Source: Vulcanimicrobiota bacterium
GTDB taxonomy: Bacteria > Vulcanimicrobiota > Vulcanimicrobiia > Vulcanimicrobiales > Vulcanimicrobiaceae
Assembly: GCA_030043675.1 (NCBI GenBank)
Contig: JASHXG010000020.1
Span: 1 to 37,922 of the forward strand
Direction of reading: 5' to 3'
Length of the DNA stretch: 37,922 bases
Position numbers and translations under genes: made by a program. Positions 2,773 to 35,031 of the stretch are shown here, one piece after another; position 1 is the stretch's first letter, and each line of letters begins with the position of its first letter. The notes under the pieces are model-generated. The model was not told the DNA's origin, made no database searches, and was given only the letters and a program-made list of their open reading frames with translations.

Positions 2773-4143
2773 ATGCGTGAGTTTTTGGCAAGTTTTTGGC
2801 ATTCGACCTCTACGCCGCGCCGGTTTACCGGCCTCGCACTTTCGCTGGCGTTCACCGCGTGTTCTGCCGGCTTGCAGCCGTCAACGCCCATGCAAAGCGA
2901 CGGCGTCATGCGAGCGCTCGCGTCGACCGGCGCCGGCAAGATCGATCACATCGTCTACATCGTTCAAGAGAACCGCAGCTTCAATAGCATTTTCGAGGGC
3001 TATCCGGGCGCCGACACCGTCTCAAGCGGCAAAAACTCGAAGGGACAGATCATCGAGCTCACGCCCGTAAGCCTCAAGACCGTGTACGAAATCGATCACT
3101 CGGCTGCGGCGATGTTTGCCGCGTGCAACGGCAGAGGCAGCCTTCCGGGGACTCGCTGCCGCATGGATGGATTCAACAACGAAGAAGCATCGTACGGCAG
3201 TCCGAACAACCCGCAGTACGTCTACGTGCAGCATCGTGAAACGAAACCATACTTCGATATGGCTCATGAGTGGGTCTTGGCCGATCGAATGTTCGCATCG
3301 CAGCTCGATGAGAGCTTCGTGGCCCACCAATACATTATCGCGGCGCAGGCGCATTCGAGCGTGAACGTTCCCGACGGCCCGTGGGGCTGCCCGGGAGGCG
3401 CGTACGATGCGGTTTCCACGATCACGCACCTGCGAACGGTAGGCCCGGCTCAAGAGCCTTGCTTCGATTATCAGACGCTCGGTGACGAGCTCGACCGGGC
3501 CGGGCTCTCCTGGCGCTTCTACACGAGCCAGTATTTGGTTCCGACGAGCGGCCTTTGGTCGGGATATCAGGCGGTGAAGCACATCTACGACGGACCCGAC
3601 TGGACTAAGGACATCATCGTGCCGCAGAGGCGATTCCTCATCGACGTGGCCGCCGGAAAACTTGCGAACTTTACCTGGATTACGCCGCTTTGCGTAAATT
3701 CCGACCATGTGTCCTGCGGCGGCGGCTACGGGCCGTCGTGGGTTTCGACGGTGGTCAATGCAATCGGCGAGAGCAAGTTCTGGAAGAGGACGGCGATCTT
3801 CGTTCAGTGGGATGACTGGGGCGGGCTCTACGACAACATTCCCCCGCCGTTCAAAGACTACGACAGCTTAGGCTTTCGCGTGCCGTTGCTGGTGATTTCG
3901 CCGTACGCCAAGCACGACTACGTTTCGCACGTGCAGTACGAGACCGCGAGCGTTCTGCGCTTTGCCGAAGATCTTTTCGGCCTGGGCCGGCTAGCTGCGG
4001 CCGACGCGCGTGCCGCTTCACCGGCAGAGGACTGTTTCGACTTCTCGCAACGGCCACGCGCGTTCGTCCCGATCCAAGCGCCTAAAGGCCGCCGCTTCTT
4101 CCTCCATCAACCCAACGACGACCGCATCCCCGACGACGAATAG
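2773..4143 (+). CDS. Phosphoesterase family protein (phospholipase C/acid phosphatase type), predicted lipoprotein
   Basis: Track ORF 1582..4143 trimmed to ATG at 2773; lipobox LAFTACS; 'KIDHIVYIVQENRSFNSIFEGYPGADTV', 'WDDWGGLYDNIPPP', 'GFRVPLLVISPYAKHDYVSH' are typical of the bacterial phosphoesterase family. Confidence 0.88.
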   Translation: MREFLASFWHSTSTPRRFTGLALSLAFTACSAGLQPSTPMQSDGVMRALASTGAGKIDHIVYIVQENRSFNSIFEGYPGADTVSSGKNSKGQIIELTPVSLKTVYEIDHSAAAMFAACNGRGSLPGTRCRMDGFNNEEASYGSPNNPQYVYVQHRETKPYFDMAHEWVLADRMFASQLDESFVAHQYIIAAQAHSSVNVPDGPWGCPGGAYDAVSTITHLRTVGPAQEPCFDYQTLGDELDRAGLSWRFYTSQYLVPTSGLWSGYQAVKHIYDGPDWTKDIIVPQRRFLIDVAAGKLANFTWITPLCVNSDHVSCGGGYGPSWVSTVVNAIGESKFWKRTAIFVQWDDWGGLYDNIPPPFKDYDSLGFRVPLLVISPYAKHDYVSHVQYETASVLRFAEDLFGLGRLAAADARAASPAEDCFDFSQRPRAFVPIQAPKGRRFFLHQPNDDRIPDDE

Positions 4144-8029: not shown

Positions 8030-9121
8030 ATGAGCATCTTTCATACGGCCACACGCGCCCTGGGAGTTGCAGTTGCGGTCGTCTTATTTGCCGGCTGCAG
8101 CGCGGCGATGGCGCCGGTCGCTCCGGGAGCGCAGACCGGTGCGCCAGGCTCCTCCGCAAAGCAAGTGCCGCCGCCGCTGGCGATGCGCCTGACCAACGCG
8201 CTCGGGCTCGCCCCCGTGCCGCGCCGAAACGCTCGCGCGTCCTGGATGTCGGCGAACGCGAAGGCTACGGGTCCTCTCCTCTATAGTTCCAACCAAGACT
8301 TCAGTGAGATCGACGTCTACGGCTACAAAAGCAGAAAGCTCGTTGGGCAGATCACGAGCGGGGTTGTTTATCCTTACGGAGAGTGTGCGGATGCCTCGGG
8401 CAACGTATGGGTCGCCGATTTAGAGGGTTTCGACCTCGTCGAATACGCGCATGGCGCGACGAAGGCCACCACGCAGCTGACGGACGATTACGGGAACCCG
8501 ATCGGCTGCTCGGTCGACCCCAAGACCGGAGACCTCGCCGTCGCCAACTTCGAAGGAAGTCCAAGCGGATACGGCGGGAATATCGTCATCTACCGCAACG
8601 CCGCAGGCGCCGGAAAAGTGTACACGCCGGCGAGCACGTTCTTGTGGCCTCCCAGCTACGACGATAAGGACAATCTCTTCATCGAGGGTGAAAGTGCCGT
8701 CTCGGGCGATCATGAGCTGTTCGAACTCGCAAAGGGAGGCAAATCGCTGACAGAAATCTCGCTGCCCTTCACCATCTATTTCCCGGCAGGCGTCAACTGG
8801 GACGGAAAGTACGTCGACGCCAACGATCAGGCTTACGAGGATACCGACACGACGGGCGTATACCGGCTTACGATCTCGGGTTCGACCGCTAAGCTTGTAA
8901 GCCAGACCGGTTACACTGATACCTGTTACGACGACTACGTCGACGTGGTACAGGCCGTCATCGACGGCAACACGTATATCGGCGGAAACCTCTTCTGCCA
9001 AGATGCGGCCAAGTACCGCATCGACTACTGGGGGTACTCGAGCGGAGGCAACGCGCGCGAGTACATCAACGGCCAGTCGAACTTCAGCGATACCTCGTAC
9101 GGACAAGCGCTCAGCAAATAA
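8030..9121 (+). CDS. Secreted propeller-like lipoprotein (paralog 5)
   Basis: Start trimmed to ATG 8030 with AAGGAG upstream; MSIFHTATRALGVAVAVVLFAGCSAAM lipobox; 'RASWMSANAKATGPLLYSSNQDFSEIDVYGYKSRKLVGQI'. Confidence 0.83.
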   Translation: MSIFHTATRALGVAVAVVLFAGCSAAMAPVAPGAQTGAPGSSAKQVPPPLAMRLTNALGLAPVPRRNARASWMSANAKATGPLLYSSNQDFSEIDVYGYKSRKLVGQITSGVVYPYGECADASGNVWVADLEGFDLVEYAHGATKATTQLTDDYGNPIGCSVDPKTGDLAVANFEGSPSGYGGNIVIYRNAAGAGKVYTPASTFLWPPSYDDKDNLFIEGESAVSGDHELFELAKGGKSLTEISLPFTIYFPAGVNWDGKYVDANDQAYEDTDTTGVYRLTISGSTAKLVSQTGYTDTCYDDYVDVVQAVIDGNTYIGGNLFCQDAAKYRIDYWGYSSGGNAREYINGQSNFSDTSYGQALSK

Positions 9122-18577: not shown

Positions 18578-20152
18578 TTAAGTACGTTTACGCCCTAAAA
18601 GCAGGACGCTGGGGATTGCGATGTAGGCGAGAACGCCGGTCACGAGAAAGGCGTCCGCGTACGAGAGCGCGGCGGCTTGCGCGACGACCTGTTCGGCCAG
18701 TTGCGCGGGGCTGCCGTGTTGTAAGAACTGCACGACCGGCAGGCTCGCGAGCGTCGTCTGCGCGGCGAGTACCGTTTGATGGAACTGCTCGCGCCGGTCG
18801 ACGAACGCAACGATTCCGGCCGACGAGATCGAGCCGCCCAGCTGGAAGGCCAGCACGATGAACGAGGCCGCTTTGGGCGCCGCCTGCGGCACAACCGCGC
18901 GCATCGTCGCGACCAGCAGCGGCGAGTAGACGAACGCCGATCCCGTGCCAACCACCAAAAGCGGCAGCACGAAAGTGCCGAGATCGCTTTGCGTGGTCGT
19001 GACGTTGCCTAGCCATACCAATCCGATCCCGGCCACCGCCAAACCCGCGCCGATCAATGGACGCAGGTCGGCACTAGGAAGACCGGTGAGCCGCGCGACC
19101 GGCATCGTCAGCAGCAGCACGGGCAGCGCGCGAATGCCGATCAACAAGCCGGCCAGCGTGCTGGTAAAGCCGAGATCCTCGACCGTGAACTGCGGCAAGA
19201 GCAGCAACGGCGGGAAGACGATTCCGGCCAGCGTGCCGGCGATTCCGATCGCTGCGGCCACCGCCGGCTGGCGCAGGACGCGCAAGTCCACGATCGGCTC
19301 GGCCACACGCAGCTCCCACCAGACGAACACCCCGGTCGCGATCACCGCCAGCCAAGTGCACAGCACGATCGATCGATCGGAGAACCAGTCGTCGTGTTGA
19401 CCCTGGTCGAGCACGTATTGCATGCAGCTGACTGCGAGGATCAGCAGCCCAATGCCGATGACGTCGACGCGCGCTTTCTGGCGTTGTCCGTTGTCTCGCA
19501 TGTAGCGCCACAACAAGACCAGTGCAACGATGCCCGGGACGAGATTCACGTCGAAGACCCACGGCCACGAGAAGTTATCGACCAGGACGCCGCCGAGCGT
19601 CGGTCCTACCGAAGGCCCGAGGATCGTGCCGAGCGCGAAGATCGATTGGCTCATGCCGAGCTGCTCGGGCGGAAAGGTGTCGCGCAATACCACTTGCGCG
19701 ACCGCGAGCAAGCCACCGCCGAACGCGCCTTGCACTACGCGAAAGAGAATCAGCGCGGTCAACGAGGTCGCCAGGCCGCAGAGCATCGATGCGAACGTGA
19801 ATCCCGCAATAGAGATAAGAAAGTAGTTCTTGCGCCCGAAGCGTAGCTGGAGCCACGGCGTCATCGGAATCACGACGACGTTGGCGATCACGTAACCGGT
19901 GAGCACCCAAGTCGCCTCGTCAACGGTCGCTCCCAAGTTGCCTTGAATCGTCGGCAACGCGACATTCACGATCGTCAGATCGATCGTCTGCAACAGCGCC
20001 GCCAGCATCACGCCGGCCACCACCAAGTAGCGGCGCGCGCCGTATTCGACGAGTGAGGGCGCAGCCGAAGCCGGCCTCGGCGTCGTTACGGGCGGGCGGG
20101 GGCGTGCGGGAATAACGCCGGTGACTGCGCCGGCTCTTTCGGCAACTGACAT
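18578..20152 (-). CDS. DHA2-family MFS multidrug transporter (EmrB/QacA type)
   Basis: 524 aa; 'LLQTIDLTIVNVALPTIQGNLGATVDEATWVLTGYVIANVVVIPMTPWLQLRFGRKNYF'. Confidence 0.93.
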   Translation of the reverse strand: MSVAERAGAVTGVIPARPRPPVTTPRPASAAPSLVEYGARRYLVVAGVMLAALLQTIDLTIVNVALPTIQGNLGATVDEATWVLTGYVIANVVVIPMTPWLQLRFGRKNYFLISIAGFTFASMLCGLATSLTALILFRVVQGAFGGGLLAVAQVVLRDTFPPEQLGMSQSIFALGTILGPSVGPTLGGVLVDNFSWPWVFDVNLVPGIVALVLLWRYMRDNGQRQKARVDVIGIGLLILAVSCMQYVLDQGQHDDWFSDRSIVLCTWLAVIATGVFVWWELRVAEPIVDLRVLRQPAVAAAIGIAGTLAGIVFPPLLLLPQFTVEDLGFTSTLAGLLIGIRALPVLLLTMPVARLTGLPSADLRPLIGAGLAVAGIGLVWLGNVTTTQSDLGTFVLPLLVVGTGSAFVYSPLLVATMRAVVPQAAPKAASFIVLAFQLGGSISSAGIVAFVDRREQFHQTVLAAQTTLASLPVVQFLQHGSPAQLAEQVVAQAAALSYADAFLVTGVLAYIAIPSVLLLGRKRT

Positions 20153-22455: not shown

Positions 22456-23181
22456 TTACTGCTTGGCCATCGAGTCGGAGACGAGGTTCAACGTCGTCTG
22501 GTAGATCGTTTCCGCATTGGCTTTTACGCCGATATTCTGCTGCTCGGTCGTGTATTCGTCAATCGAGGTCGGAAGCAAACGGTTGTAGTTGTAGTCGACC
22601 TTCGTCTCCACGCTCGTCGTCGTGGCACCGATCGTCGTGTCCTCGGTGTGGCGAGTCTCTTCGATCGTCATGACGCCGCCATCGTTCGTCTTAATCGTGT
22701 AGTCGGCGCTCAGCCTCGTGGCGCCACTGCTCTGCGCAATCGACCAGTGCTGCTTGTCATCGACGTGGCTTGGATCGATGAAGTTCGCACCGAGAAAGCG
22801 CAGAAGCGTGTACTCTTCGCTATTCACCGTCTTGCTCTGGTCACAGATGACGGTCGTGTTACCGTAGACCGCGCACGTCGCCGGCGCCGCGCTGCGGACG
22901 TAATCGGCCTGCTCGCTCACCACCACGACCAGACCCCGATCCTGAGCTTCCCGCAACACGTCGACGGTAATGGTGCCCTTGTCGTCGAGGTTGCCGTTGT
23001 AGCCGCTCCCACTGCCTTCACCGGGATCGTTGGTCTTGAGGCCGCGCTGGCGCGACTGGTAGCTGAATGCGTAAACCAGGTGGCGAAGCGGCGGCGTATC
23101 GGCGGCGGCAGCCAGGGCGGCGCACCCGAAGGCGCAGAACATCGCCAAGGCGAGAGGGCGAATCAGATATGCGTGTCGCAT
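22456..23181 (-). CDS. Exported hypothetical protein
   Basis: Start trimmed to ATG 23181 (MRHAYLIRPLALAMFCAFGCAALAAAADT...) with strong SD GGAGGGAG. Confidence 0.75.
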   Translation of the reverse strand: MRHAYLIRPLALAMFCAFGCAALAAAADTPPLRHLVYAFSYQSRQRGLKTNDPGEGSGSGYNGNLDDKGTITVDVLREAQDRGLVVVVSEQADYVRSAAPATCAVYGNTTVICDQSKTVNSEEYTLLRFLGANFIDPSHVDDKQHWSIAQSSGATRLSADYTIKTNDGGVMTIEETRHTEDTTIGATTTSVETKVDYNYNRLLPTSIDEYTTEQQNIGVKANAETIYQTTLNLVSDSMAKQ

Positions 23182-24446
23182 TGCAACTCCCTCCGGTCGC
23201 TTCACCGCTTCATCGGCGAGCAGGCGCGGTCCTTGGAGCGATCCTAGCCGTTGCGGCCGCTGCTGCAATCGCGGCCGGCGCGCGCGCTCAGAGCGGCCTG
23301 CCCGAAGGCAACGGCAAAGCGATCGTGCAGGCAACTTGCGGAGAGTGCCACGGGCTCGGCCAGGTGGTCAACTCCGGTTACACGCGGCGAGGCTGGGCCA
23401 ATGTCGTCGCGATGATGATCAACGCCGGCGCGAAGCTTTCACCGAGTCAGGTGAGCACCGTCGTCGACTACCTCGCCAAGAACTTTCCGGAAAAGGCAGC
23501 GCCGGCCGCCGTCATCGTGCCCGGCGCGATACGCGTGACGATACGCGAGTGGCCGGTGCCGATTCCGGGCTCGCGTCCGCACGATCCGCTCGCGATGCCG
23601 GATGGATCGATCTGGTATACCGGCCAGATGGCCAACGTTCTCGGCCGGCTCGATCCGGCGACCGGCGAGTTTCGGCAGTATTCTCTGCCGCCTGACTCGG
23701 GACCGCACGGCCTGGTGGCCGACAAGGACGGCAACATCTGGTACACCGCGAACTTCGGTGCATACATCGGGAAACTCGATCCGCGGACCGGACACGTCAC
23801 GCGCTATCCGATGCCCGACCCGGCGGCACGCGACCCGCACACGCCGCTCTTCGATCAACACGGCACGCTCTGGTTCACGGTGCAAGGCGGGAACTTCGTC
23901 GGCCGCCTCGATCCCGCGACGGGCGCGATCAAGCTGGTGCGGCTGCCTTCGCCGCATTCGCTGCCCTACGGCATGGTGATCAGCTCGAAAGGCGTTCCAT
24001 TCTTCGCCGAGTTCGGCGCAAATCGCATAGGCCGAATCGATCCGCAGACGATGCAGATCCACGAATACACGCTTCCGAATCCGGCCGCGCGGCCGCGACG
24101 CATCGCCAAGACGAGCGACGATATCATTTGGTATACCGACTACGCTCGCGGCTATCTCGGGCGGCTCGATCCCGTTTCGGGAGCCGTCAGCGAGTGGCCG
24201 TCGCCGGGCGGTGAGAACTCCCAACCCTACGGGATCGGCGTGATTCGCGGCGCGATCTGGTACAGCGAATCGGGCGTCCAGCCCAACACAATCGTGCGCT
24301 TCGATCCGGCGACCCACCGCTTTCAGACGTGGCCGATTCCCTCCGGCGGCGGTGTCGTCCGCAACGTGTCACCGACCTTCGACGGAAACCTCGCAATCGC
24401 GTGCAGCGGCGTCAATCGGATTGGGTTGGTCGAAATCCAGCACTAA
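23169..24446 (+). CDS. Cytochrome c domain fused to a virginiamycin B lyase-like (Vgb) beta-propeller, exported
   Basis: Start trimmed to ATG 23169; signal peptide; heme motif CGECH; repeated 'GNIWYTANFGAYIGKLDPRTG...' propeller blades. Confidence 0.85.
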   Translation: MRVALQLPPVASPLHRRAGAVLGAILAVAAAAAIAAGARAQSGLPEGNGKAIVQATCGECHGLGQVVNSGYTRRGWANVVAMMINAGAKLSPSQVSTVVDYLAKNFPEKAAPAAVIVPGAIRVTIREWPVPIPGSRPHDPLAMPDGSIWYTGQMANVLGRLDPATGEFRQYSLPPDSGPHGLVADKDGNIWYTANFGAYIGKLDPRTGHVTRYPMPDPAARDPHTPLFDQHGTLWFTVQGGNFVGRLDPATGAIKLVRLPSPHSLPYGMVISSKGVPFFAEFGANRIGRIDPQTMQIHEYTLPNPAARPRRIAKTSDDIIWYTDYARGYLGRLDPVSGAVSEWPSPGGENSQPYGIGVIRGAIWYSESGVQPNTIVRFDPATHRFQTWPIPSGGGVVRNVSPTFDGNLAIACSGVNRIGLVEIQH

Positions 24447-27374: not shown

Positions 27375-27884
27375 TTAGGAGCCGAGCAGCGACTCTACGG
27401 TCGCGCGAACGTCGTCGTCTTGAGAGTCGCCCACGATCGTTCGGTGCAGCGCGCCCCGCCGATCGAAGATGAGCTCGGTAGGCCAGGCTTGGACGTCATA
27501 GGCGTGCCAGAGCGCAAAATCGTTGTCGATCGCGACCGGCCAGACGATGCCTTGGCTGGCGAGGCTCTGCTCGACGTAAGGCCGCGAACGTTCCACCGGC
27601 GTCTCCGGTGCGTGGATGCCGATGATCCTCAAGCCACGCGCGCGGTCGCGAGCATAAAGCGCGCGTAGGGTGGGCACGACGTTTCGGCAGTTGAAGCAGT
27701 CGACGGTAAAGACGTCGAGGACCACGACGTCACCTGACAGATCCCGGGCCGAAACGCGGCCGTTGATCCAATCGCCGGCTCCGTCGAGCCGGTCGAGCGA
27801 CACTGACGCGGCGCTTGCCGGCTGACGGGCAGGCATGCACGCCGCGGCTATGCAGCATGCGACCGCGAGCAGCCACCATCGCAT
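27375..27884 (-). CDS. Thioredoxin-fold (TlpA/redoxin-like) lipoprotein
   Basis: Start likely at internal ATG (MRWWLLAVACCIAAACMPARQ); CxxC-type 'FTVDCFNCRNVVPTLRALYARDR', 'WPTELIFDRRG'. Confidence 0.85.
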   Translation of the reverse strand: MRWWLLAVACCIAAACMPARQPASAASVSLDRLDGAGDWINGRVSARDLSGDVVVLDVFTVDCFNCRNVVPTLRALYARDRARGLRIIGIHAPETPVERSRPYVEQSLASQGIVWPVAIDNDFALWHAYDVQAWPTELIFDRRGALHRTIVGDSQDDDVRATVESLLGS

Positions 27885-27922
27885 GATCGTTGTACGCCAC
27901 CACTTGCCGATTGGATGAGTCC

Positions 27923-29914
27923 TCACTGGAAATGCTGGCCGATGAAACCGAGCCAGTAATGGTAGACGTCAACGGTCCGCACCGGATCGCGCGGGAAATG
28001 GCCGTCGACCGGCCAAACGCGCAGCGTCGCATCCTTGTGGTTGTCGCGCAGCGCGCGCCAGTACATCGATGAAGTGGCGAACGGATCGCGGTTGTCGCCG
28101 ACGTCGGAGAGGATCAGCACCGGCGTCGTCACGTCGCCGGCGTAGCTGATCGCCGAAGCGCGCCGCCATTCATCCACGTTGGCGCTCATGAACGGCGAGC
28201 CGTGAAAAAGATCCGCGTCGGCTAGACTGTCATCGGCCGTGCCGTAATCGGTGATCCAATCGTTGACCGAAGCACCCGACACCGCCGCCTTCCAAATATG
28301 GTACTTCGAGATCATCCACGCCGTCATGATTCCGCCGTACGACCAGCCCGAGACGGCGATGCGGCTGTCGTCGACGATGCCGCGCGCACGCACCGCGTCG
28401 ATCGCGGCCATGATGTCCTTGCCGGGTCCTAGCTCGGGGTCGTAAAGCACGGCGCGTTGATAGGCGAGGCCGAGGTTGTTGCTGCCGCGATAGTTGGGCC
28501 GCAGCACCAGCCATCCACGCGCGGCCATGACCTGCGACCAGAAATCAAAACCCAGTGTCGACGATGAGGTCGGGCCGCCGTGAATGAAGACGCTCAGCGG
28601 ATAGCGGCGCCCTTCGACAAAGCCGGGCGGCGTGTAGAGCACGGCATCGCCGGTGATACCGAGGCTAGTGGGAAAGGTAATGCGTTGCGCCGAGGCGAGA
28701 TTCAGCGCCGCGATCGATGCATTGTAGTCGGTTAAACGCGTCGTCGCGCCGGCGGCCGCGCGGAAAAAGAGTTCGGGCGGCTGTTTTGGCGAGGAAGCGA
28801 TGAAGAGCAGCGTTCCGTCCGGCCCGAGCGCATTCGCAAGCTCGGGCGCCATGGTTAGATCGCCGAGCTCGACGCGTTCCGGCCGCCCTTCGAGCGGCAC
28901 CCGAAAGAGCGCCGTCGTAGCGTCATAGGGCGCGGTGAAGTAGAGGCTCTTCGAGTCGCGTGCCCAGGCGAAGTCTGCCACCGTGCGATCGACCGGCGTC
29001 GAGACCGGCGTACCGTTTCCGCCGGCCGGCGTCGTCACGTAGACCTGCACCAGATTGACTTGCGAATCGCCGTCGGAATACGCGTAGGCGATGTGGCGAC
29101 CATCGGGCGAGAAGAGCGCGTTACTCTCCCATGCAGTATGCGTTGTAAGGGGACGCACGGCGCGAGTGGCGACGTCGAGCAGCACGACGTGCGAATAGCT
29201 TTCGTCGTTGAGGATCGCGTCGGGCGCGAGGGTGAAAACGATGCTCTTTCCGTCTGGGGACCACGAGAGCGTCGACTGCGCTTCGCCGGTGACGATGCTC
29301 TGCGCGCCGAAGGTCAGCTGCGTCATCGTTCCGTCGCGCAGCGAGACGAGGAAGAGGTGCGCGGGATGTGCCGGCCGGCGCGCCACGATCGGCTGGGTCG
29401 TGAAAACGAAGCTGTCGCGGAAGCGGTCGGCTCCCTTGGGTTCCGGCGGTGGATCCGCAGAAACGAACGCGATCGCCGCTCCGTCCGGGCGCCAGGCGAA
29501 CTGTTCGACGCCGCCCTTCGCATGCGTGACCGGGTGCGCGTCGCCGCCGTTGAGCGGCATGACGAAGACCTGACTCTGCGCGTCGGCTCCGGTGCCGTCT
29601 TCGGCGAGGAACGCCAGGCGCGTCCCATCAGGCGAGAAGGCCGGATCCGAAAGTCCCTTGCGTTGATAAGTGAGCGTCCGTTGCGCGTGCGTGGCGAGGT
29701 CGATCAGAACCAGCTCGTTGTCGCGGCGGTCTTCGTCCCACGCGATGCGCGAGACCAGCACGACCGCCGCTTTTCCGTCGGGCGAGAGTACCGGAGACGC
29801 CAGGCCAACCAGGCGCTGATAGTCGTCCTCGCCGATCGTTCCGGCCGGCTGCGCGGCCGCCCAAGTCAACGTCGCGAACAGCATGAGGAGAACGGCCAGG
29901 GATCGGACCGGCAT
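27923..29914 (-). CDS. S9-family prolyl oligopeptidase-like peptidase, exported
   Basis: 663 aa; signal peptide; WD40/TolB-like repeats; 'SRIAVSGWSYGGIMTAWMISKYH' Ser motif; C-terminal 'VWPVDGHFPRDP'. Confidence 0.93.
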   Translation of the reverse strand: MPVRSLAVLLMLFATLTWAAAQPAGTIGEDDYQRLVGLASPVLSPDGKAAVVLVSRIAWDEDRRDNELVLIDLATHAQRTLTYQRKGLSDPAFSPDGTRLAFLAEDGTGADAQSQVFVMPLNGGDAHPVTHAKGGVEQFAWRPDGAAIAFVSADPPPEPKGADRFRDSFVFTTQPIVARRPAHPAHLFLVSLRDGTMTQLTFGAQSIVTGEAQSTLSWSPDGKSIVFTLAPDAILNDESYSHVVLLDVATRAVRPLTTHTAWESNALFSPDGRHIAYAYSDGDSQVNLVQVYVTTPAGGNGTPVSTPVDRTVADFAWARDSKSLYFTAPYDATTALFRVPLEGRPERVELGDLTMAPELANALGPDGTLLFIASSPKQPPELFFRAAAGATTRLTDYNASIAALNLASAQRITFPTSLGITGDAVLYTPPGFVEGRRYPLSVFIHGGPTSSSTLGFDFWSQVMAARGWLVLRPNYRGSNNLGLAYQRAVLYDPELGPGKDIMAAIDAVRARGIVDDSRIAVSGWSYGGIMTAWMISKYHIWKAAVSGASVNDWITDYGTADDSLADADLFHGSPFMSANVDEWRRASAISYAGDVTTPVLILSDVGDNRDPFATSSMYWRALRDNHKDATLRVWPVDGHFPRDPVRTVDVYHYWLGFIGQHFQ

Positions 29915-32882: not shown

Positions 32883-33536
32883 ATGGCTTCATCAGGGAGC
32901 CTCGCCGTATTTTGCGGTCCCTCGCTGGCGCCTGAAGACCGGCTACCCGTTGCGGAGGTTTCCTATCTGCCGCCGGCTGCGCGCGGCGACATCGAGCGCG
33001 CAGCTGCGAGCTTCGATAACCTTCTCTTAATAGACGGCGTCTTTCATCACGACCTCGCGCCTTCGCCCAAGGAGTGCTACAAGGCCGCGCAACGGGTTTG
33101 CTGTTTCGGGGCCGCGAGCTTGGGCGCGCTGCGAGCCGCAGAGTGCGCGCCCTACGGCTTCGCGCCGCTCGGCATCATCGCGCGCTGGTATATTTGCGAG
33201 GTCATCGACGGCGACGACGAGGTCGCGGTGGCCGTCGATCCGCGGACCCAATCGGCGCTAAGCGTTCCCTCGGTAAACGTTCGTTTCGTGGCACGGCTGG
33301 CGGTGCGGCGCGGCATCATCTCGTGCTCCGAAGCCGGTCGGCTTGTCGCGCAAGCGCGCGAGGTCTACTACGCGGATCGAACCTGGGAGGACGTGCTGGC
33401 GCTTGCGCCCGCGAAGGCTCGCGCGGCGCTCGGGGCGCTGGCGGCGAGACGCGGCGATCTGAAGCGCCTCGACGCGCGGTTTGCGCTGAATAGCGTCCTG
33501 CGCGCCCTTGCTCGGCGCGAGCACGCCCATGCTTGA
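32883..33536 (+). CDS. TfuA-domain protein (YcaO partner)
   Basis: 217 aa; 'AVFCGPSLAPEDR', 'LLLIDGVFHHDLAPSPKECYKAAQRVCCFGAASLGALRAAECAPYGFAPLGIIARWY...GDDEVAVAVD' matches the TfuA-like core. Confidence 0.92.
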   Translation: MASSGSLAVFCGPSLAPEDRLPVAEVSYLPPAARGDIERAAASFDNLLLIDGVFHHDLAPSPKECYKAAQRVCCFGAASLGALRAAECAPYGFAPLGIIARWYICEVIDGDDEVAVAVDPRTQSALSVPSVNVRFVARLAVRRGIISCSEAGRLVAQAREVYYADRTWEDVLALAPAKARAALGALAARRGDLKRLDARFALNSVLRALARREHAHA

Positions 33537-34728
33537 CCAGACGGCCTCTCACCGCAAGGCGTCCGGATCGTACGATCGTTGCGTTCCGCTCGAACGAACG
33601 CTCGAGCTCGTTGCGGAGCTTCGCGCGCGTTGCGCAATCACGCGCATCGGCGACATCACGCGCCTCGATCGCATCGGCATTCCCACTTTCTGCGCGATCG
33701 TCCCAACTTCGGGCGCCGGACTGACCGTCTTCAATGGCAAGGGTGCGACGAAGGAGGCGGCGCGCGCGAGCGCGGTATTCGAGGCCGTCGAACGCGTGAC
33801 CGCCGCTTCACCGTGGCTACAGTCTCGCACGCGCGCTCTCGCCGGTGTGGAGTGTATCGAGGGCCACGATCTCCTCAACGGACGCAGCGTGCACGTGCCG
33901 CTCGACTCAGTGCATCTCCGCCGCCCCAAAGACCCGAGCTTTCCGGTTCCGACTTCGAACGGTTTGGCCTCGGGAAACACGCTCACCGAGGCGACCTATC
34001 ACGCGCTCTGCGAGCTGATCGAACGCCACAGCTGGTCGCTCTACCAGATGCGATGTGAACGCCTGCCCCGGATGCTTGGTGGACGAGGTGCGCACGATAT
34101 AGCGTTTGCGCCCGAGCTTCGAATCCCAAGCGGGAATGCGGACCTCGATCGACTGGCCGAGCGTGTCACGGCTCAAGGCTTGCGGTTGCGGATTCTCTAC
34201 TTGTACGAGCCGCATCTGCCTGCAGTGATGCTGTCAAGCATCGTCGAGGAAGGATCCGTTCCGCCGATGTCCCATATCGGCTTGGGCTGTTCGCTCTCGC
34301 CCGCTCATGCCGCCATTCGGGCCATCACTGAGGCGGCGCAAAGCAGGCTGACCGATATTCACGGCGCTCGCGATGATGCATTACGCGCGAGCGACGCGCC
34401 GACGCGCGCCACGGAGCACACCCGTCGGCTTTCCAAAGCGCCGAAGAAGGTTTGGTTTTACGATCTTCCGGCGCGCTCGATCGGGTTGGGACCAATACCC
34501 GACCTCTCGACAAACGACGTGGCCGAGGACGTGAGGCGCATCCTATCGGCCCTGGCACTTTTCGGCGCCTCGTCTGCAACGATTGTCGACCTGTCACCGC
34601 CGGATCTGCCGGTAACGGTCGTTCGCGCGATCGTTCCGGAGCTCGAAACGACCTGCGTCGACGGACGAATCGGTCCCAAGGCCAGAGAGGCCTTAAATCC
34701 CTTCAGCATGTTCAAAGTACCTTTTTGA
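33529..34728 (+). CDS. YcaO-domain peptide cyclodehydratase/thioamidase-type protein
   Basis: Track starts at TTG 33508; ATG at 33529 overlaps the TfuA stop by 8 nt. YcaO ATP-binding signatures: 'SAVFEAVERV', 'ALCELIERHSWSLYQ', 'AIRAITEAAQSRLTDIHGARDD'. Confidence 0.95.
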   Translation: MLDQTASHRKASGSYDRCVPLERTLELVAELRARCAITRIGDITRLDRIGIPTFCAIVPTSGAGLTVFNGKGATKEAARASAVFEAVERVTAASPWLQSRTRALAGVECIEGHDLLNGRSVHVPLDSVHLRRPKDPSFPVPTSNGLASGNTLTEATYHALCELIERHSWSLYQMRCERLPRMLGGRGAHDIAFAPELRIPSGNADLDRLAERVTAQGLRLRILYLYEPHLPAVMLSSIVEEGSVPPMSHIGLGCSLSPAHAAIRAITEAAQSRLTDIHGARDDALRASDAPTRATEHTRRLSKAPKKVWFYDLPARSIGLGPIPDLSTNDVAEDVRRILSALALFGASSATIVDLSPPDLPVTVVRAIVPELETTCVDGRIGPKAREALNPFSMFKVPF

Positions 34729-34737
34729 GAGGACGTC

Positions 34738-35031
34738 ATGAACCCGACACAACAGAATGCCGCGGCAGCCGGCTTCATCCAAGCCCTGTACGACTCGGCC
34801 ACCCTGCGCGCCCAATGGGTTGAGATACAGAGCAACGGCTGGGAGGGCTTGGGCGCCCTCATCCAGTCGACGCTTGGGCTGGCGGTAACTCCGAGCAACG
34901 CGGATCTCACCGCGATGCGCGCCTACTCCGAAAACTATACGCCGGCTTCGCCAGCAGATCTCGCGGGAGAAGATCCCAGCGTCAATCCCATCTGTATCTT
35001 CAACGGTGCGAACGGACCCGCAAACGACTAA
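34738..35031 (+). CDS. Candidate RiPP precursor peptide (Nif11/NHLP-like leader, single-Cys tail)
   Basis: 97 aa starting 9 nt after the YcaO stop with SD GAGAGG; 'AAGFIQALYDSATLRAQWVEIQSNGWEGLGALIQSTLGLAVTPSNADLTAM' leader-like; tail 'AGEDPSVNPICIFNGANGPAND'. Confidence 0.8.
   Translation: MNPTQQNAAAAGFIQALYDSATLRAQWVEIQSNGWEGLGALIQSTLGLAVTPSNADLTAMRAYSENYTPASPADLAGEDPSVNPICIFNGANGPAND

Follow-up and report, generated by a model that had tools for sequence, protein, structure and literature searches.

What do a TfuA protein, a YcaO protein and a short peptide make when they are encoded side by side in a bacterium of the Candidatus Eremiobacterota? The three genes lie in a window of 37,922 nucleotides (i.e. 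the whole stretch of DNA analysed), which belongs to contig C293 of a MAG with 63 % completeness. Candidatus Eremiobacterota corresponds to Vulcanimicrobiota at NCBI and is a mostly uncultured phylum, with almost no cultured members. We considered it probable (roughly 75 %) that the genes constitute a RiPP cassette of the thioamide-forming TfuA-YcaO type, the precursor representing a separate family and being modified in its C-terminal core.

The original prediction had described three consecutive plus-strand genes with almost no spacing, and these were indeed found as a tight operon in the order TfuA, YcaO and 97-aa peptide (Table 1). The peptide gene starts 9 bp past the YcaO stop codon and is preceded by a ribosome-binding-site-like stretch, AGAGGACG. 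The longest YcaO frame opens at a TTG codon (33508), and the ATG codon at 33529 fits the relatives. The full syntenic block was retrieved from a genome of the same genus (G015), with identities of 89 % for TfuA, 84 % for YcaO and 50 % for the peptide. The dN/dS values between the window and G015 were ~0.18, ~0.15 and ~0.33, respectively, which indicates that purifying selection acts on all three genes. Taken together with the synteny in G015, this selection excludes a chance origin of the three ORFs.

Table 1 Position and main characteristics of the cassette features in the window
Feature	Position	Strand	Characteristics
TfuA protein, 217 aa	32883..33536	+	Pfam/NCBIfam matches; S79 (GAASLGALR) and K194 (DLKR) as in the solved TfuA 6XP8
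YcaO protein, 399 aa	33529..34728	+	8-bp overlap with tfuA at the ATG start; intact ATP-binding positions; shorter variable loop
97-aa precursor peptide	34738..35031	+	Helical leader (~residues 1-80), then the core region at the C-terminus ...VNPICIFNGANGPAND
Putative core region (NPICIFNGANGPAND)	34984..35028	+	Same position as HVGxxxxMQQ of relatives; tandem cores in L032 and L043
STAND regulator (HTH_31, AAA/NB-ARC, TPR), 829 aa	35050..37539	-	Convergent with the peptide gene; cassette membership inferred from position

Relatives were gathered by a TfuA alignment scan, as a scan for close relatives using YcaO alone gave nothing. The TfuA protein matched Pfam TfuA (6e-28) and NF033432 (6e-43), the latter with 147 bits for an equivalog cut-off of 235, and it aligned with 6XP8 over ~200 residues. 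Both S79 and K194, which are also present in 6XP8, were invariant across 20 TfuA relatives. TfuA is reported to hydrolyse ThiS-COSH by means of a Ser-Lys pair (PMC13185837), to which these two residues may correspond in the window. ThiS is encoded in the window genome and in 92 of the 99 genomes of the family, TfuA being present in 24 of these 99 and in 29 of the 149 genomes of the phylum. No TfuA relative was found in IMG/VR.

Regarding YcaO, matches were obtained with Pfam YcaO (8e-56) and with TIGR03266 (2e-58; 198 bits for an equivalog cut-off of 365). Its nucleotide-binding signatures had been described as intact and proved to be so: nine positions (E85, E88, N150, E154, E162, E165, E268, Q271 and R273) were invariant (alignment A2), and the ATP-site stretches SAVFEAVER, SNGLASGNTLTEATYHALCELIERH and TEAAQSR were kept in the aligned relatives and in MJ1094 (6PE3). 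The Pfam match is split, and a domain gap (Pfam positions 27-75) was considered and rejected: only the variable loop is shorter, by ~20 aa compared with that of relatives, and no catalytic position is missing. The protein ends in NPFSMFKVPF, without a PxPxP tail. Natural TfuA-YcaO fusions of ~650 aa were found in 11 genomes.

Backbone thioamidation of the peptide tail is likely, because YcaO has a TfuA partner in which the Ser and Lys positions are kept, because YcaO lacks a PxPxP-like tail and because the genome encodes ThiS. By analogy with the chemistry of these families, TfuA and YcaO would bind the 97-aa peptide by its helical leader, YcaO would use ATP to phosphorylate one or more backbone amides of the core, and TfuA would supply sulfide, probably from thiocarboxylated ThiS (ThiS-COSH), so that sulfur would take the place of the amide oxygen. 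Finally, an unlinked housekeeping protease might free a short, mostly hydrophobic core. Alternatively, YcaO could form an azoline, an amidine or a macrocycle, as YcaO proteins are versatile (PMC13063428) and the window core contains one Cys. We regard this as distinctly unlikely, considering that TfuA is fused to YcaO or lies next to it in almost every locus, that the cores share no common Cys, Ser or Thr, that neither E1/ocin-ThiF nor dehydrogenase genes were found beside the cassette and that the PxPxP tail is missing.

Among known thioamide-forming systems, the thiovarsolin cluster (var; VarA-VarY-VarT; PMC6511847) has in common with the cassette a TfuA-YcaO pair, a ribosomal precursor and a thioamide (inferred for the cassette), as well as repeated cores within the precursor family and a simple linear product (predicted for the cassette). 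However, ATP-grasp, amidinotransferase and heme-oxygenase-like genes were not found linked to the cassette, its leader and core differ, without an APR-type core, and it is accompanied by a convergent STAND regulator. Thioamitides (thioviridamide and thiostreptamide S4; PMC8153245) are likewise thioamidated by TfuA-YcaO, as is supposed here, on a short, C-terminal and partly hydrophobic core, but the cassette lacks the AviMeCys/dehydration enzymes and most of its cores lack the Ser/Thr and Cys that these need. The methanogen pair forming the McrA thioglycine (PMC5589413) provides the nearest curated models for both enzymes, and Gly is conserved in most cores; in contrast, McrA is a large enzyme substrate and the cassette proteins score below the equivalog cut-offs.

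The absence of partner and tailoring enzymes, of a peptidase and of an exporter, which had also been claimed, held true for the genes adjoining the cassette: no leader peptidase, exporter or recognition-element protein was found linked to it. An S9 prolyl-oligopeptidase-type gene does lie 3 kb upstream (27923-29914), but it was discarded as a cassette part, being syntenic in the same-genus G015 alone and missing in the other cassette loci. The term ‘minimal’ applied to the cassette suits the window and some branches, not the group as a whole: in 17 of 28 genomes a SAM methyltransferase is encoded inside the cassette, flanked either by the YcaO and peptide genes or by the two enzyme genes. It is missing in the window, G015, G024, G041 and G052.

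Other genes were recorded in the surroundings. Upstream of tfuA, and on the same strand, an AhpC-type peroxiredoxin and a ResA-like redoxin are encoded in L029, L030, L031, L036, L040, L042-L047 and L049; a redoxin paralogue is located in the window at 27375-27926, on the opposite strand. The window also encodes a virginiamycin B lyase family beta-propeller protein (23067-24446) and an MFS transporter (18578-20152), both probably unrelated to the cassette. A defence system was considered and rejected, since PADLOC gave no match for TfuA, YcaO or the peptide and recognised only helix-turn-helix parts of regulators.

The original prediction held the tail peptide to be the substrate, and its co-inheritance with the TfuA-YcaO pair across the order supports this. 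The downstream peptide proved to be conserved beside homologous pairs: a profile of the peptide had matches in 26 of the 149 phylum genomes, of which 24 also encode TfuA, and 118 genomes contain neither (Fisher 1e-20, a p-value that overstates the evidence because genomes, not independent events, were counted). Rearranged and divergent cases weigh more than such p-values. In both peptide-only genomes (G030 and G038), the contig end that bears the peptide also holds a truncated YcaO. Five genomes appeared as TfuA-only by profile (G025, G047, G090, G103 and G132); in G025 and G047, a divergent peptide is encoded close to YcaO or TfuA, the TfuA of G090 falls outside the cassette clade in the TfuA tree, and G103 and G132 represent other families of the phylum. 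All three genes are present, in a rearranged order, in three order-mates from another family (G127, G129 and G130). Including divergent ones, peptide-bearing genomes amount to 28. In the tree, the 25 cassette TfuAs form a single clade (support 100/100) with a long stem.

Searching the TfuA loci of other phyla with the peptide profile gave nothing convincing; as judged from these comparisons, the peptide family is restricted to one Eremiobacterota order among the genomes searched. An accessory role could still be imagined for the peptide, the pair modifying another target such as a ribosomal protein, in the way that other YcaO proteins act on large proteins (PMC5589413, PMC13063428). This seems highly improbable given the co-inheritance across the order, the fast evolution of the tails and their tandem arrangement in paralogues, and the absence of the cassette TfuA clade from peptide-less genomes.

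The peptide matched no family in Pfam or NCBIfam, and a fold search with its AlphaFold model gave no match. The leader-plus-tail organisation proposed for these 97 aa was recovered in that model, as a helical leader (four helices, residues 3-66) followed by a disordered tail; pLDDT was 84-95 for residues 1-60 and ~46-54 for the last 27 residues. In most relatives, the tail consists of [AP]xxVG, 4-5 mostly hydrophobic residues and MQ[QH], then a few residues at most. The tails of the window (...VNPICIFNGANGPAND) and of G015 (...VNAVVVFNGMNGPLPGADPTNSSP) deviate from this pattern, and the window core is devoid of the VG...MQ motif common to most relatives; its putative position was deduced from the alignment and one close relative. 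Between species of genus g11, residues 1-60 are 94 % identical and the five residues after VG 63 %.

Two paralogues carry repeated cores. The locus L032 (G064) encodes two YcaO proteins and two distinct precursors; its peptide gene at 8097-8564, which separates tfuA from the first ycaO gene, carries five tandem HVGxxFVVQ cores on a single leader. In L043 (G029, 3171-3515), a second peptide with two cores on one leader is encoded directly after the fused TfuA-YcaO gene. Thiovarsolin precursors similarly form a family with one to five repeated cores (PMC6511847). Tandem repetition of the segment in paralogues is the strongest evidence for a short C-terminal core of ~10 residues, and it makes the ‘large peptide’ product suggested earlier the less likely of the two; the core modified by YcaO would comprise ~10-15 residues at the C-terminus. 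The MQQ end was also considered as a mere by-product of the overlap with the regulator gene, an explanation that was rejected: this end is kept in the first and second peptides of L048, which do not overlap, and the Q is also retained in the repeats of L032.

These data bear on another reading, namely that the product is an uncut small intracellular protein with a thioamidated tail, comparable to McrA or uL16 and serving e.g. as the STAND regulator's ligand. No peptidase or exporter is linked and conserved across cassettes, the closest curated models are those of the McrA glycine thioamidation pair, and the leader is folded and well conserved, all of which would suit such a protein. Nevertheless, the five tandem cores of L032 and the two of L043 suggest that a single precursor gives rise to several units of product, and the tail varies faster than the leader; we hold this reading to be unlikely.

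We further compared the leader with precursors of known types. In silico surveys have delineated 613 TfuA-YcaO cluster families, including fused enzymes and Nif11-type as well as other precursors (PMC8120280). The cassette leader displays a helix and spacing pattern similar to that of TfuA clusters with Nif11-type precursors (PMC8120280), but the peptide has weak Nif11 matches and no GG cleavage motif. Membership of Nif11 (PF07862) was rejected, the matches being below the Pfam cut-off (best E 0.0089 and 0.096; profile-comparison P 0.026). Nif11 peptides were also met elsewhere, i.e. two Nif11-type peptides just upstream of TfuA in a Planctomycetota locus (L144, G157:C1:411677-412273) and seven consecutive Nif11 peptides on one contig of Hyella (G149:C74). 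Additionally, a 105-aa peptide is encoded ahead of a second YcaO gene at L121:5321-5638 (G054:C57) and could be distantly related to the cassette family (E 0.27).

The other constant companion of the peptide gene is a regulator gene, which the original prediction had not mentioned. All 28 peptide genes (27 genomes) with an assembled downstream side face a large convergent regulator ORF, the two 3' ends ranging from a 23 bp overlap to 129 bp apart, most commonly a 14-17 bp overlap; they are 18 bp apart in the window and 3 bp apart in G015. Regulators of type F2 combine AAA_16 with a LuxR helix-turn-helix and are MalT-like. F2 was detected in 26 of the 28 peptide genomes vs 3 of the 121 others (Fisher 1.7e-23, again from counts of genomes) and, in the first nine cassette genomes searched, at the cassette only. 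No recognisable peptide was found alongside the F2-like regulators of G043 and G090. F2 is absent from the window genus, in which a HTH_31/NB-ARC/TPR STAND protein fills the slot, so that both core motif and regulator type differ from those of other genera. The family of this protein is much expanded, with 3-23 matches per genome, and a functional tie of the window's STAND protein to the cassette is suggested by its position only. The expansion of XRE/NB-ARC/TPR STAND proteins in the window genus (g1) reaches 23 matches per genome, e.g. in G020.

Most simply, the STAND regulator controls the cassette, and it may sense its product. The pairing suggests a modified peptide acting as a signal with its own receptor, and an ordinary pathway regulator fits as well. 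The regulator could indeed be only pathway-specific, or an unrelated neighbour in the window, with no peptide sensing, which is compatible with a thioamide-forming cassette and which we favour slightly: biosynthetic clusters often contain large LuxR/STAND regulators, and the neighbour in the window genus comes from a large paralogue family. Against this stand the tail-to-tail position, mostly overlapping, at every examinable peptide gene, its persistence where YcaO has been relocated (L112-L114 and L120), and the near confinement of F2 to cassette genomes. We put forward only as a tentative and rather doubtful proposal that the cassette yields a short backbone-thioamidated pheromone sensed by the tail-to-tail MalT-like STAND ATPase regulator.

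The SHP/Rgg systems of streptococci (PMC3679016) offer a parallel in layout, i.e. a short hydrophobic C-terminal peptide whose gene lies beside that of a regulator, convergently in SHP/Rgg group III, where the short peptide is the regulator's ligand (PMC3679016). The cassette differs in having a STAND ATPase in place of Rgg, as well as a folded leader and modifying enzymes, and the likeness is one of layout rather than of membership. Across the family, the regulator gene adjoining the peptide gene is inherited together with it; for the window, the likeness is one of position only.

While the TfuA-YcaO kind of cassette is itself already known (PMC8120280), three aspects are new: the family to which the precursor belongs, the confinement of this family to a single Eremiobacterota order within the genomes searched, and the invariable tail-to-tail arrangement with a STAND regulator gene. 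Among open-licence papers, none was found that joins Eremiobacterota with TfuA or YcaO, and no TfuA product is known from this phylum in the literature searched. With two enzymes, one substrate and natural fusions, the cassette would represent a compact thioamide-forming system that should be easy to rebuild. To our knowledge, no signal role has been demonstrated so far for backbone thioamides, and the conserved STAND pairing provides a testable case for such a role.
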